Shown piece by piece: positions 1-7,663 of a stretch of 64,000 bases of DNA (its first letter is position 1; each line of letters opens with the position of its first letter). Source of the stretch: Mechercharimyces sp. CAU 1602 (lineage in GTDB: Bacteria > Bacillota > Bacilli > Thermoactinomycetales > JANTPT01); assembly GCF_024753565.1 (NCBI RefSeq), contig NZ_JANTPT010000001.1, positions 434,001 through 498,000 on the forward strand, in the 5' to 3' direction. Position numbers and translations under genes: made by a program. The notes below the pieces were generated by a model. It was not told the origin of the DNA and made no database searches. It saw nothing but the letters and a program-made list of their open reading frames with translations.

Positions 1-2
1 AT

Positions 3-965
3 TATTTGCGTGGGAGATGCTATCGATTAAACGGGCAGTGGGACAAAGCAAAAAGAGAGCTACTTAATGCGGTGCGTCTGTCGAAAAACGACCCTCTCGA
101 AAACATTGAAGCGTGCGCTTATAATTTGTTAAGTGCCCTCTCTTTTTATCAAAACAACCTAGAAGAAGCGATATTTTATACAGAGCGCGGTCTTTCTGTT
201 TTTCAACAAGAAGGGGAACGAGACTATATTTTAGATATGTTACTTGTGAATAAACTGGCCTATTTGGAGAAACTGAATCGACTAGGGGAAGCTTTTGCTT
301 TACTAAATGAAGTATGGGCACGGAAAGAGACGATTAAACGCCCAGAATTGTTGCTCCATCTGTATCATTTAAAAGTAAATTTATTGCGTAAGACTGACCA
401 CTATAATGAAGCGATCGAAGTGGGACTAGAGGGAGTAAAGCGTGCGCAGCTAGTTAAAGAGTACAACCGGCATGTGGATCTTTGGGATGCGTTAGGAAGT
501 GTCTATTTGCGTACGGAAGATCTAGAAAATGCGGAGATCTGCTTTGAATCGGCAATGAGTTTTAGCGAAGCGGCACAAGGGCATTATTATTTTGTTTCTA
601 CTCTTACCAAATATGGTATCCTCTATATGCGTAAGGGAATGTGGCGAGCATCAGAAGAGAAATTGCAAGAAGCGATTGCTTTGGGCAAGGAGCTACATGC
701 CGACATTTACTTGATCGATGCATATGTTGTGATGGGCGATTTAAAGAATGCACAAGCTCAGTATGAAGATGCTTTGGTTCACTATCGGCATGCACTGGGC
801 ATATCGGATCGCATTGACTTGAAAAAGAAAAAGCATGCGGTGCTTCACCGCTTAACTTTATGCTTGCAACAAACGGATCAAGTGGAATTTAAAGAGCAGT
901 TGGCGAATATGTTTGAGTTAAAGAAAGAGTTAAAGGAGGATGAAGTGATTGACGAAATCATTTAA
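3..965 (+). CDS. TPR-repeat peptide-receptor regulator (RRNPP-like), 5' end outside window
   Basis: The frame is open to the left edge, so the N-terminus, expected to carry a helix-turn-helix, is missing. The visible ~320 residues are a string of TPR-like helical pairs. They align with the complete HTH-TPR protein at 6322-7554; shared stretches include LNRLGEA versus LNRVGEA and YGILYMRKGM versus AGILYIQKGM. In the NprR/PlcR/Rap group such TPR domains bind a short re-imported peptide. A secreted pro-peptide ORF starts inside the last codons, which supports that reading. The specific family member (NprR-, Rap- or PlcR-like) cannot be fixed without the N-terminus. Confidence 0.8.
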   Translation, partial: YLRGRCYRLNGQWDKAKRELLNAVRLSKNDPLENIEACAYNLLSALSFYQNNLEEAIFYTERGLSVFQQEGERDYILDMLLVNKLAYLEKLNRLGEAFALLNEVWARKETIKRPELLLHLYHLKVNLLRKTDHYNEAIEVGLEGVKRAQLVKEYNRHVDLWDALGSVYLRTEDLENAEICFESAMSFSEAAQGHYYFVSTLTKYGILYMRKGMWRASEEKLQEAIALGKELHADIYLIDAYVVMGDLKNAQAQYEDALVHYRHALGISDRIDLKKKKHAVLHRLTLCLQQTDQVEFKEQLANMFELKKELKEDEVIDEII

Positions 966-1083
966 ACTGCTCCTCGCCACAGTGATGATTACTGTTGCCC
1001 TCGTTTCTACTCAAGTTGGAATCGCACTCGACTCATCCACACCGAGTGAAGCACCGTTTAACATCTCCACTCCCAGCGAGTAG
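949..1083 (+). CDS. Phr/NprX-like secreted signalling pro-peptide, 44 aa
   Basis: This small ORF is in the +1 frame relative to the TPR gene and overlaps its last 17 bases. It starts with TTG, eight bases after a strong AAAGGAGGA (932-940) that lies inside the upstream coding sequence. The product has a Lys-containing n-region, a hydrophobic core of about 18 residues and a polar tail, LDSSTPSEAPFNISTPSE, as expected for an exported pro-peptide whose processed end is the signal. In Rap-Phr and NprR-NprX pairs the receptor gene is followed by, and often overlaps, such a peptide gene. The mature peptide cannot be read from the sequence; the C-terminal 5-8 residues or a segment of the tail are candidates. 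Confidence 0.72.
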   Translation: MTKSFKLLLATVMITVALVSTQVGIALDSSTPSEAPFNISTPSE

Positions 1084-1148
1084 CAAAGGAGTCGCGTTCC
1101 TTTCTATGGATCAATTATTCAGAAATATTAGATATTATCATTTTAAAG

Positions 1149-1182
1149 AGCATCTCTGGTATTGCATCAGGGATGCTTTTTG
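1149..1182 (+). terminator. Intrinsic terminator after the receptor/peptide pair
   Basis: AGCATCtCTG pairs with CAGgGATGCT across a short loop and is followed by a T run. It ends the TPR/pro-peptide transcript. Confidence 0.7.
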
Positions 1183-1246: not shown

Positions 1247-1295
1247 ACACCCTTATTCTGCACTATTTGTGCGAGAATAAGGGTGTTTGTTTTTA
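1247..1295. terminator. Bidirectional terminator
   Basis: Long near-perfect hairpin with arms ACACCCTTATTCT..GCAC and GTGC..AGAATAAGGGTGT, followed by a T-rich stretch. It separates the plus-strand peptide locus from the convergent reductase/hydrolase gene, whose stop codon lies in the T run. Confidence 0.7.
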
Positions 1296-3098
1296 TAGAG
1301 GTAGCTTGCTCGTCATAATATCTGTGATTAAATTAGCTGTTTCCTGGGGATGAGTGATGGGGGCTGAATTGGAAAAAGGAAGATAGAGGTGTGCGGGTGT
1401 ATTAAGTTTTTCCGTTGGCACGTTTGAAACGATAGTCACCTTACTGCTAGGTGGTAGTTGTAGTGGGAATCGTTCTTTTTGATACTGTAGTTCGTGTAGC
1501 ATATCACGCGTAGTGTGACGAATGCGTGGAGAATGAAGATCGGCTACGAGATGAGCGAGAAAGGGTACAGGAATGTCGGTAGCTTGTGAGAAGAAACCTG
1601 TTGAGACGAGAAATTCTGCCAAGTGCTCCTCTTCATGAGGCAGTGTAGAGAAATTAACGGTCTGCTCTTCTTCTATATCCAGTTGCGGATGAATGTGAAT
1701 AAGCTGTTGAATGGAATCGGGTATATGTTGATTGGCATGGGTGGCGATGATACTACCAAGTGAGTGTCCGATGAGAGTAACAGGTTCATTGATGTTTTGA
1801 ATCATCTCAACGACAGCAGTAATAGTTCCTGCGATAGGACTGGATTGATGGTGATAGGGTGAGCGCCCGAATCCTGGAAGGTCGGGAGCGATAATGGGAT
1901 GGGTTGTCGAAAGTTGATCTATCAGGGGCAGCCAAGAGTCGGCTCCACCCCATAAGCCGTGCAGTAGTATTATGGGGCTTCCAGTTCCTCGATGAGAGGC
2001 TTCCAGTGTGGCTAGATTTCCTCGACGCCCTCGTATCACAGTGGTGGGAATAGGAGTGTGATGAGAGAGACGATAATCGACATCGGCGATAATATGAGGA
2101 AGAATACTTTCTACAGTAAGAGGTTCTTCATAAACTTTTTGAACAGAGGTGCGTGGGCGATCGTCAGAAATAATAAAGCTAAGCGTCTCTTTAGGAAAGC
2201 CAACTGAAGAAGCTTGTGAGGGCCAATCTTGCCTTAATTGTGAGACAGAGACCTTAAGTTGCGGGGTGTCTTTTCTTAATTCGTGAAACATCTGGAGAAA
2301 TAGCTGTTCGATATCAGGGGTGCTCTCCTTTTCAGCGAGTAGATAGTAGGTTTCACTTATAGGGTGTGGTTGATTGACCAATTTCACGATGAGTTGAGCC
2401 AGATCGCTCTTACTTACAAGCGGGAGCCACTCCCCTTGTTGACTTGGAATGGCTTTCACCAGATCATTACGAATCAGATGGATAAATAGTCCGAGTGCAC
2501 TTAGTTGTTCATTCTCTCCAGTACGGCGATCCCCGATCACGGTAGAAGGGTTGATGACGGACAAGGGAATGTTTAATGCTCGCGCTCGTTGACGGATAAG
2601 CAAGTCAGCGGCAAATTTCATTTGTTCATATGGCCCTTCTTCAGGAAACCGAGAAGAAAGGCTGTATGGATCACTTGTTAGGTCTATGTTTTGTTCGTTA
2701 AATGGGCTCTTATATCCTACGACATGTAAAAAGTGAGCAAAGGGTTTCTGCTTTATGATCTCTTCGCATAGGTTCATCAATTGATTGGCTGCATCGAGAA
2801 ATACTTGTTTAGCTGTATCTTTGTCAATCGTAATATCCATCGGCCCCGCAGTATGAATGATGGAATCACTTTTCAATACTAGTTGTTTGTCGCACTCGCT
2901 TAATCCGAATTCTGGTAGTGTTAAGTCGCCGATAATAGGTTGAACGTTATGATGCGTAAGCTGAAGTTCATGCTGTAGTCGGATATACTTTTCCTCAGTC
3001 CGTATAAGAACCATAATAGTATGGTCTGTTTGCAGGAGCTGTTTTAATACTTCCTTTCCGATAAAGCCTGTAGGACCTGTCAAGAGAATGGTTGACAT
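1293..3098 (-). CDS. Fusion of NAD(P)-dependent SDR-type reductase and alpha/beta hydrolase
   Basis: About 601 aa. The N-terminal half is an extended SDR/NAD-binding domain: TGPTGFIG nucleotide loop near residue 6 and a YEQMK motif fitting the catalytic YxxxK. The C-terminal half is an alpha/beta hydrolase with LLHGLWGG (oxyanion region), DLPGFGRS and the nucleophile elbow GHSLGS; a late His in THPQ may complete the triad. The ATG at 3098 was chosen because AAAGGAGAG lies just upstream; an earlier in-frame codon has no such site. The gene follows a TetR gene on the same strand, and related operator-like palindromes precede both genes. The substrate is unknown; a lipid or acyl-ester role is only an inference. 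Confidence 0.8.
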   Translation of the reverse strand: MSTILLTGPTGFIGKEVLKQLLQTDHTIMVLIRTEEKYIRLQHELQLTHHNVQPIIGDLTLPEFGLSECDKQLVLKSDSIIHTAGPMDITIDKDTAKQVFLDAANQLMNLCEEIIKQKPFAHFLHVVGYKSPFNEQNIDLTSDPYSLSSRFPEEGPYEQMKFAADLLIRQRARALNIPLSVINPSTVIGDRRTGENEQLSALGLFIHLIRNDLVKAIPSQQGEWLPLVSKSDLAQLIVKLVNQPHPISETYYLLAEKESTPDIEQLFLQMFHELRKDTPQLKVSVSQLRQDWPSQASSVGFPKETLSFIISDDRPRTSVQKVYEEPLTVESILPHIIADVDYRLSHHTPIPTTVIRGRRGNLATLEASHRGTGSPIILLHGLWGGADSWLPLIDQLSTTHPIIAPDLPGFGRSPYHHQSSPIAGTITAVVEMIQNINEPVTLIGHSLGSIIATHANQHIPDSIQQLIHIHPQLDIEEEQTVNFSTLPHEEEHLAEFLVSTGFFSQATDIPVPFLAHLVADLHSPRIRHTTRDMLHELQYQKERFPLQLPPSSKVTIVSNVPTEKLNTPAHLYLPFSNSAPITHPQETANLITDIMTSKLPL

Positions 3099-3131
3099 AT
3101 GATAACTCTCCTTTGTAATCACCTATAAATT

Positions 3132-6321: not shown

Positions 6322-7554
6322 GTGGAACAAGTGCTCGAGCAGTTGGAAAGAAAAGAAATCGGGGAACTAATTAGGAGTATTCGTAAGAGTAGTGGTTTAA
6401 CACTCGAAAATCTGGCTGATACTAACATCTCACCAGCTACGATCAGTAATATCGAACGGGGTGTTCCTCAGGTTCTTTATGGTAAGATACGATATCTTTT
6501 GAGCAAATTAGATATTAGTGATCATCAACTCCCTGAATTGCTTGCCAACCTAAAAGAATCACACACTAAACAATATGATCTAATTATGGCTGCTGAGAGC
6601 CTCTCCGATTTTCGTAACCTTGAAGAAGCAAAGGAAATGCTGAGACGAGCAGAAGTTAATAATACAAGTGATCCTCTTTATTCGCTCAAGAGTTTTGTAT
6701 TAGGAAAAATCAGTCTCGAAGAGCGTCAATGGAAGTTAGCAGAGGTGAATTTCAATGAAGCAATTCATGCCTGTAATAATCCTAAAAGTAATATTATTTC
6801 AGGGAGCTTGGCGAACCTGGGATATGTGGCATTTCACCAAAATGATTTATTTAAAGCACTGGATCGGACAAATGAAGGGTTGAGGACATTTGTTGAAGGT
6901 GGGGAGAGGGAGCATATTCGCTACTTTCTCATTCAAAATAAAGCGATATTTCTCGATAAGCTAAATCGTGTTGGGGAGGCTATTGTAACTCTTGACGAGA
7001 TGGTGGAAGAGATTCATCTCATTCAAAATCCCATTGTCATAACCCATCTTTATCACACTCGGGCTAGCCTCAGTTTAAAGACCAAACATTATGAAGCTGC
7101 GAAGCAATTCGCTTTAAAAGGTGCGCATACTGCCCACCAAAATCTTCTTCCTAAGCATGCATCGATGTGCTTCTCTCTACTTGCTGAAATCCATATTAAA
7201 CTTGAAGAATTGGATGATGCGGAACGTTATATCCACCTCGCTCGACACATTCAAAAAGGGTCGGATGATCAGAGATTATCTACACACACATATACCCAAG
7301 CTGGTATTCTATACATTCAAAAAGGGATGAATGAAAAGGCAAATAACTATTTAGATCTGGCTATTGAAAATGGAAAAAAATATGGTGATCATTTTCGATT
7401 AGAGTCGGCATATCTTGCAAAAGGCGATGTCTCAAAAAATATGGGATATACCAATGAAGCCATTTCTTATTATAAGAAGGGCTTAGCACTTGCCAGTACA
7501 AATCAAAATATTGAACAGGAGCAACAAGCTTTGTTGCGCCTTGCTCTTATTTAA
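6322..7554 (+). CDS. HTH-TPR peptide-receptor transcription regulator (NprR/RRNPP-like)
   Basis: 410 aa, full length. Residues about 13-46 form an XRE-type helix-turn-helix (IRSIRKSSGLTLENLA, then SPATISNIERG). The remainder is TPR-like helical repeats. It starts at GTG with GGGGA ten bases upstream. This is the architecture of NprR, PlcR and related regulators, which bind a re-imported peptide in the TPR domain and switch DNA binding. A signal-peptide ORF overlaps its 3' end in the +1 frame, as for the paralogue at the left edge. Target genes are unknown. Confidence 0.85.
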   Translation: MEQVLEQLERKEIGELIRSIRKSSGLTLENLADTNISPATISNIERGVPQVLYGKIRYLLSKLDISDHQLPELLANLKESHTKQYDLIMAAESLSDFRNLEEAKEMLRRAEVNNTSDPLYSLKSFVLGKISLEERQWKLAEVNFNEAIHACNNPKSNIISGSLANLGYVAFHQNDLFKALDRTNEGLRTFVEGGEREHIRYFLIQNKAIFLDKLNRVGEAIVTLDEMVEEIHLIQNPIVITHLYHTRASLSLKTKHYEAAKQFALKGAHTAHQNLLPKHASMCFSLLAEIHIKLEELDDAERYIHLARHIQKGSDDQRLSTHTYTQAGILYIQKGMNEKANNYLDLAIENGKKYGDHFRLESAYLAKGDVSKNMGYTNEAISYYKKGLALASTNQNIEQEQQALLRLALI

Positions 7555-7663
7555 GTGTATTAGTCTTACTATAACACTTGTTTTTGCGCTTGCCATTGTT
7601 TCTGTATCCGGTGTTGTAAATGTTAAGCCGGATATTTATTACTCGGATCCGGAACATGTTTAA
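7541..7663 (+). CDS. Second Phr/NprX-like signalling pro-peptide, about 40 aa
   Basis: This ORF is in the +1 frame and overlaps the HTH-TPR stop codon. It encodes a short positive n-region, a hydrophobic stretch (TITLVFALAIVSVSGVV) and a polar tail VNVKPDIYYSDPEHV, the layout of exported pro-peptides. The start is uncertain. TTG at 7541 gives 40 aa but lacks a well-spaced ribosome binding site (AGGAG is 19 bases away). TTG at 7511 gives 50 aa with a more basic N-terminus. The match in position and frame to the first receptor/peptide pair is the strongest support. A terminator follows directly. Confidence 0.6.
   Translation: MLLFKCISLTITLVFALAIVSVSGVVNVKPDIYYSDPEHV

Follow-up and report, generated by a model that had tools for sequence, protein, structure and literature searches.

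A probable receptor and signal-peptide gene pair in Mechercharimyces and its relatives, with peptides encoded as putative secreted precursors, leaderless micro-ORFs and receptor tails

The window analyzed here is a stretch of 64,000 nucleotides from Mechercharimyces sp. CAU 1602 (contig NZ_JANTPT010000001.1, positions 434,001 to 498,000 of the forward strand). It opens inside the gene of an HTH–TPR regulator, the end of which is overlapped by a mini-ORF. The features of this locus are as follows (window coordinates):

1 to 965, plus strand: 3′ part of the receptor gene, encoding an HTH–TPR regulator of 442 aa in full; the frame is open through the window start
932 to 940, plus strand: Shine–Dalgarno (SD) sequence of the mini-ORF, AAAGGAGGA, seen in the sequence and present as the same element in homologues
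949 to 1083, plus strand: putative pro-peptide gene with a TTG start, encoding 44 aa in the +1 frame relative to the receptor; the architecture is conserved
949 to 1026, plus strand: putative Sec signal sequence, MTKSFKLLLATVMITVALVSTQVGIA, assigned by charge, hydropathy and homologous N-termini of paralogues (L005, L006, L008, L009)
1036 to 1050, plus strand: internal STPSE copy, putative signal unit 1 (from the sequence and the tail consensus)
1066 to 1080, plus strand: C-terminal STPSE copy, putative signal unit 2 (same basis)
1144 to 1182, plus strand: 17-bp hairpin with a U-rich 3′ arm (fold z −2.9), with a terminator scan match at the same place

The 5′ end of the receptor gene lies about 363 bases upstream of the window, and the complete gene corresponds to L004:1135-2463. 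The initial annotation had described an unlisted 44-codon ORF with a TTG start and an SD sequence eight bases upstream, lying in the +1 frame over the end of the TPR gene and encoding a signal-peptide-like N-terminus followed by an 18-residue polar tail. All of these features were recovered: the SD sequence is separated from the TTG codon by exactly 8 bases, the TPR gene stops at 965 and thus overlaps the mini-ORF by 17 bases, and the product read from the sequence, MTKSFKLLLATVMITVALVSTQVGIALDSSTPSEAPFNISTPSE (44 aa), carries K3, K6 and a hydrophobic core to about V19 by charge and hydropathy, with the 18 polar residues encoded by 1027-1080. The tail, LDSSTPSEAPFNISTPSE, additionally contains STPSE twice, a repeat absent from the initial annotation. 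A promoter-like element (TTGTAA-16-TATAAT) lies directly upstream of the regulator gene, and the hairpin after the mini-ORF is a probable terminator of the receptor–peptide operon; the pair thus resembles a single short operon. Beyond the terminator, a convergent ORF of 609 aa (1293-3122, minus strand) looks by eye like a Rossmann NAD(P)-binding part fused to an alpha/beta-hydrolase part.

With 442 aa, the receptor falls within the range of RRNPP(A) proteins (250–500 aa with TPR repeats), and the 44 aa encoded by the adjacent mini-ORF lie in the 10–100 aa span of their pro-peptides. Several TPR models exceed the Pfam cut-off, and matches to HTH_31, HTH_25 and HTH_3 in residues 10-68 are all below the Pfam cut-offs. 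Pfam and NCBIfam returned generic TPR and HTH models for the receptor only and no family match for the peptide, and searching genome contigs with the window receptor gave unrelated TPR matches only. Against PDB sequences, the receptor profile matched the regulator chains 4yv6 and 5w4m over positions 4-108, the HTH region (E about 1e-10); 4yv9, which has the same sequence as 4yv6, is named as Rgg in PMC9765709. The matches listed for this profile were mostly eukaryotic or designed TPRs, together with a few bacterial regulators matched in their HTH region. Neither the PDB sequence matches to the receptor on its own nor the best 60 of 207 profile matches included an NprR chain. The AlphaFold (AF2) model of the window receptor is all-helical, with an HTH and a TPR superhelix (mean pLDDT 93.4). 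When the 50 listed Foldseek matches in the PDB were ranked by the mean of both TM normalizations, RapJ-CSF (4gyo; 0.57/0.68) came first for the window receptor and NprR (5dbk; 0.58/0.74) for its relative L192; by E-value, generic TPR proteins rank above RRNPP receptors and dominate the listed matches. The models thus provide moderate evidence that the fold is close to that of Rap, NprR, PlcR and AimR.

The receptor belongs to an expanded family. The window genome holds 13 matches to the regulator, including six close paralogues besides the window gene, and relatives are present in 41 other genomes of the order. Single genomes carry as many as 30 receptors, and a sample of 19 genomes from outside the order yielded none at 1e-10. 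We compared 118 receptor genes with 316 ordinary genes from the same genomes. Under loose criteria (SD sequence, hydrophobic N-terminus and a mini-ORF start no more than 60 nt from the receptor stop), a mini-ORF was found at the 3′ end of 64/118 receptor genes and 12/316 controls. Under strict criteria (SD sequence, start near the gene's stop, hydrophobic N-terminus and K or R near the start), the counts were 50/118 and 1/316, and with an additional proline at −2 to −6 they became 49/118 and 0/316. The overlapping mini-ORFs share the same +1 relative frame in 56 of 57 cases. Mini-ORF starts concentrate at −13 and −16 nt from the receptor stop (43 cases), and the start codons are ATG (32), TTG (19) or GTG (13). 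The initial annotation had named loss of the frame, stops or a missing hydrophobic core in close homologues as evidence against its reading. The reading passes this test: of the six paralogues nearest to the window gene in its genome, four keep the mini-ORF in the same frame, and dozens of receptors from other genera carry a homologous one with the same frame, a hydrophobic core and a polar, proline-containing tail. The N-termini of the L005, L006, L008 and L009 products are recognizably homologous to that of the window (e.g., MKSFKLLL). A chance ORF at a gene end, for which speak the shortness of a 44-codon TTG ORF and the 12 controls passing the loose test, can be dismissed at the family level given the strict counts, the common frame and start position and the conserved tails.

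These tails share a characteristic end. Orthologous products are 56% identical over their last six residues, compared with 15% over the preceding ten (45 pairs). All 65 Sec-type tails have a proline within the last nine residues; it is followed by exactly three residues in 49 tails, preceded by E, D or N in 49 and followed by G or S in 41, which gives the consensus [E/D/N]-P-[G/S]-x-x-stop. The window tail departs from this majority in having TPSE, with no acid before the proline, and no close orthologue of the window mini-ORF was found among the genomes examined, where its genome alone represents its family. About a dozen precursors contain tandem copies of the tail, up to seven: NPGEY recurs in L017, L018 has two copies of GDPIHT, L041 and L043 have three to four of SEPGGL, L025 and L028 have six to seven TSAFPGP-type units, and the window precursor has two copies of STPSE. 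Repeated signal units have precedents in the Rap, NprR, PlcR and AimR systems (PMC9765709, PMC11343458). The pooled pN/pS of 0.56, over 12 pairs that are few and mostly distant, indicates moderate purifying selection; dN/dS of single pairs ranges from 0.14 to 0.76 where computable. Tail similarity also correlates with receptor identity, weakly but beyond permutation (Spearman 0.27; 2 of 1000 permutations as high). A tail that is conserved and repeated, joined to a spacer that is not, is the pattern expected of pheromone precursors.

A short hydrophobic segment with a tail would likewise fit a small membrane or secreted peptide of different function (a toxin, bacteriocin or membrane anchor) that is merely co-transcribed with the regulator. 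We regard this as improbable, as conservation is confined to the extreme tail, which is repeated in tandem like the signal units of pheromone precursors, and a sister clade described below keeps the tail motif without the hydrophobic part. The order-wide architecture, the shared frame and the conserved tails instead bear out the receptor and signal-peptide pair proposed in the initial annotation, and support its assignment to the RRNPP type. With a probability of roughly 85%, a short linear signal peptide is made from a precursor encoded at 949-1083, and the HTH–TPR protein of the overlapping gene serves as the cytoplasmic receptor of this peptide and as a transcription regulator. According to this signal-peptide reading, the pro-peptide would be exported via Sec, and proteolysis would free a C-terminal peptide of 5–7 residues around ISTPSE/SSTPSE, with the window precursor possibly yielding two signal units. 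The peptide would then be taken up by an oligopeptide permease and sit in the TPR groove of the DNA-binding receptor, which would alter DNA binding. The window genome encodes five full-length oligopeptide-binding proteins (SBP_bac_5) and a sixth match split in two pieces; such proteins are common.

Further members of the family occur in the same genome. A second, diverged receptor, L012, is present in the window (6322 to 7554, plus strand), overlapped by a putative pro-peptide gene (7541 to 7663, plus strand) whose product has the tail ...YYSDPEHV; its TTG start is uncertain, and its SD sequence is weak and distant. L006 and L010 (G000:C1:1223149-1225454, minus strand) are tandem receptors, the first without a peptide ORF and the second, which comes immediately after it, with one ending ...ELDPSFP.

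The initial annotation had drawn a parallel to both Rap-Phr and NprR-NprX. Because the window regulator carries an N-terminal HTH, the comparison with NprR-NprX, and with the Alo system of Paenibacillus, is preferred, and that with Rap-Phr in the strict sense is rejected. Rap proteins share the TPR fold (RapJ 4gyo being the best TM match among the 50 listed for the window receptor), the Sec pro-peptide and tandem Phr copies, of which up to 6 are reported (PMC11343458; PMC9765709), but they have no DNA-binding HTH, and Phr tails are unlike those of the family. The closest known systems appear to be NprR-NprX and Alo, with Alo the nearest in layout and number. NprR-NprX belongs to the Bacillus cereus group and uses the peptide SKPDIVG. 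It has the same combination of HTH and TPR, a downstream peptide gene and a proline-containing peptide, and NprR (5dbk) is the best TM match among the 50 listed for L192; however, the PDB sequence search gave no close relation to the family among the matches listed. In the sections of the AloR-AloP report considered here (PMC7425212), an HTH–TPR receptor is likewise followed by a short (30–50 aa) Sec-type pro-peptide gene, the search for pro-peptide genes also allowed overlap with the 3′ end of the receptor gene, a genome holds many pairs and the mature peptide is C-terminal. Alo differs in its bacterial family and in its signal (AloP13 SHGRGG, compared with [E/D/N]P[G/S]xx here), and those sections describe no leaderless or nested form, unlike what we find in the order studied here.

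Both of these forms follow the receptor phylogeny. In a tree of 190 receptors, built after cutting off the tails, one branch with an SH-aLRT support of 100 divides 103 receptors from 87. The larger side comprises 64 receptors with Sec-type peptides and 39 in which no peptide was detected under the criteria used. The smaller side comprises 39 receptors with an in-frame peptide, 32 with a leaderless one, 14 without a peptide and two of the Sec type, one of which is the long-branched L011 of the window genome. The receptor lineage therefore predicts the form of delivery, and the [DE]P core is common to both sides. On the Sec side, L068, L071, L082, L088 and L102 lack a mini-ORF, and their own C-termini (SDTPYRS, ITTPYRS, SDTPNQP or TDPEPDS) resemble signal tails, without a clear internal SD sequence.

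Leaderless micro-ORFs, which have a strong SD sequence and no hydrophobic segment, follow or overlap many of the receptors in family f5 of the order. They comprise 10–45 codons, lie at the receptor stop and mostly end in [DE]PPxx, as in MSRQVRLSDDPPGG (L080), MIKHHVNEPPDS (L099) and MKLRGHGEPPQA (L120). Two occur in a row in L117, and there are multi-copy forms such as MKRFESDPPKPSKVLESDPPKPLESDPPKNI in L182. Micro-ORFs with an SD sequence and the ending [DEN]Px1-5 were found at 53/191 receptors and 0/316 control genes, and some receptors initially scored as lacking a peptide turned out to belong to the leaderless or nested class.

In 39 receptors, the motif forms the receptor's own C-terminus. 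An in-frame SD sequence and start codon lie 8–36 codons before the stop in 32 of them, where 0.03 would be expected per gene. The sequence GGAGGTG is present in 23 of the 39 tails and nowhere in the remaining 50,760 nt of these genes; most of the other tails that escaped the search pattern carry G-rich variants such as GGGGGTGA. The SD sequence is retained in other reading frames in L033, L035, L163, L198, L205 and L219, and ATG, GTG and TTG interchange at the internal start position, which argues for a constraint on the nucleotides beyond a Gly-Gly linker alone. Several loci (L166, L186, L193, L198 and L202) also have a free copy downstream, and the in-frame L215 is sister to L222, where the corresponding peptide lies out of frame. 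AlphaFold models the linker of L192 with a pLDDT below 50, and the last ~8 residues, with the end AGDPPDL, rise to about 70, which would fit docking of the tail.

Two alternatives concern these peptides. The [DE]PP[DGE] motif of the leaderless class could be a ribosome-stalling motif that regulates translation and carries no signal. In its favor, such polyproline motifs are known to depend on EF-P; but the Sec-type tails of homologous receptors mostly contain a single proline, and in several loci (e.g., L120) the unit ends near a terminator-like hairpin with no regulated gene after it, which makes stalling very improbable. A stronger candidate, although still an unlikely one, is that the DPP tail of the in-frame class is a tethered ligand or structural tail with no free peptide, GGAGGTGA merely encoding a Gly-Gly-Glu/Asp linker. 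This would agree with translation of the motif as the receptor C-terminus, the frequency of GG[DE] there, the higher AF2 confidence of the last ~8 residues relative to the linker, and retention of the fusion throughout clades of 11/11 and 13/14 receptors. It accounts poorly for the SD sequences that persist in other frames, the exchange of start codons, the free downstream copies and the L215/L222 pair. Nested and leaderless peptides are more probably translated on their own than not, and the tail tethered to the receptor could work in cis.

We lean, with some reserve, towards a nested pheromone in the sister clade, encoded in frame within the gene of its receptor and giving both a tethered ligand and a free leaderless peptide, and towards the three forms being states of one receptor–ligand family. 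In this clade, which occurs in one family of the order, leaderless micro-ORFs would supply the same [DE]P ligand core with no signal sequence attached. In the most derived form, the micro-ORF would have come in frame with the receptor, yielding a receptor with a C-terminal peptide and a free peptide from the internal start.

A leaderless precedent exists in RopB-LCP, where a micro-ORF without a signal sequence or processing sites is paired with an RRNPPA receptor (PMC10518010). LCPs are, however, short peptides (8 aa for SIP) whose genes are transcribed divergently from ropB, whereas those described here are proline-rich, co-directional, frequently multi-copy, about 10–45 aa long and encoded at or within the 3′ end of the receptor gene. 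Membership in the LCP (RopB) clan is rejected, since the window peptide has a signal-like leader and the leaderless peptides of its relatives are co-directional and belong to other receptors. RRNPP_detector reported four BGC-linked candidate pairs in Thermoactinomycetaceae (PMC10075063), the family of Staphylospora marina, so Sec-type pairs there were partly anticipated; the main text of that paper gives no leaderless or nested form for the four candidates. Its default search is restricted to ATG starts and based on signal peptides, and would miss TTG, GTG and leaderless genes.

Relatives are also found on a plasmid and on virus-assigned contigs. The plasmid search returned a single one, on the Staphylospora marina plasmid NZ_CP034119.1 (L236; Thermoactinomycetaceae), where a mini-ORF at about 2826-2960 overlaps the end of the TPR gene and encodes a product with the tail SMSDPKCC; it has no listed feature in the plasmid gene table, which is itself incomplete. 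A search of virus contigs (IMG/VR) with the Sec-type alignment gave three virus-assigned relatives (L237, L238 and L239). These contigs hold both forms, Sec-type (...NSTEPGGR) and leaderless (MRFFGDEPLTP), and such pairs are reminiscent of phage communication systems.

The kind of receptor–peptide pair in the window is already known, and the novelty rests on the leaderless and nested forms of its relatives. In the main texts of the open-access literature, we found neither the leaderless [DE]PP class nor an in-frame pheromone within the gene of its receptor described, and a peptide written inside the regulator gene appears to be previously undescribed. Taken together, these results point to one peptide–receptor lineage with three modes of delivery: a secreted precursor, a leaderless micro-ORF and an in-frame receptor tail. 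Homologous proteins would make it testable how leaderless signals work and exit the cell, and how secreted and cell-autonomous signaling interconvert. The family also indicates a large set of small genes that annotation has likely missed.
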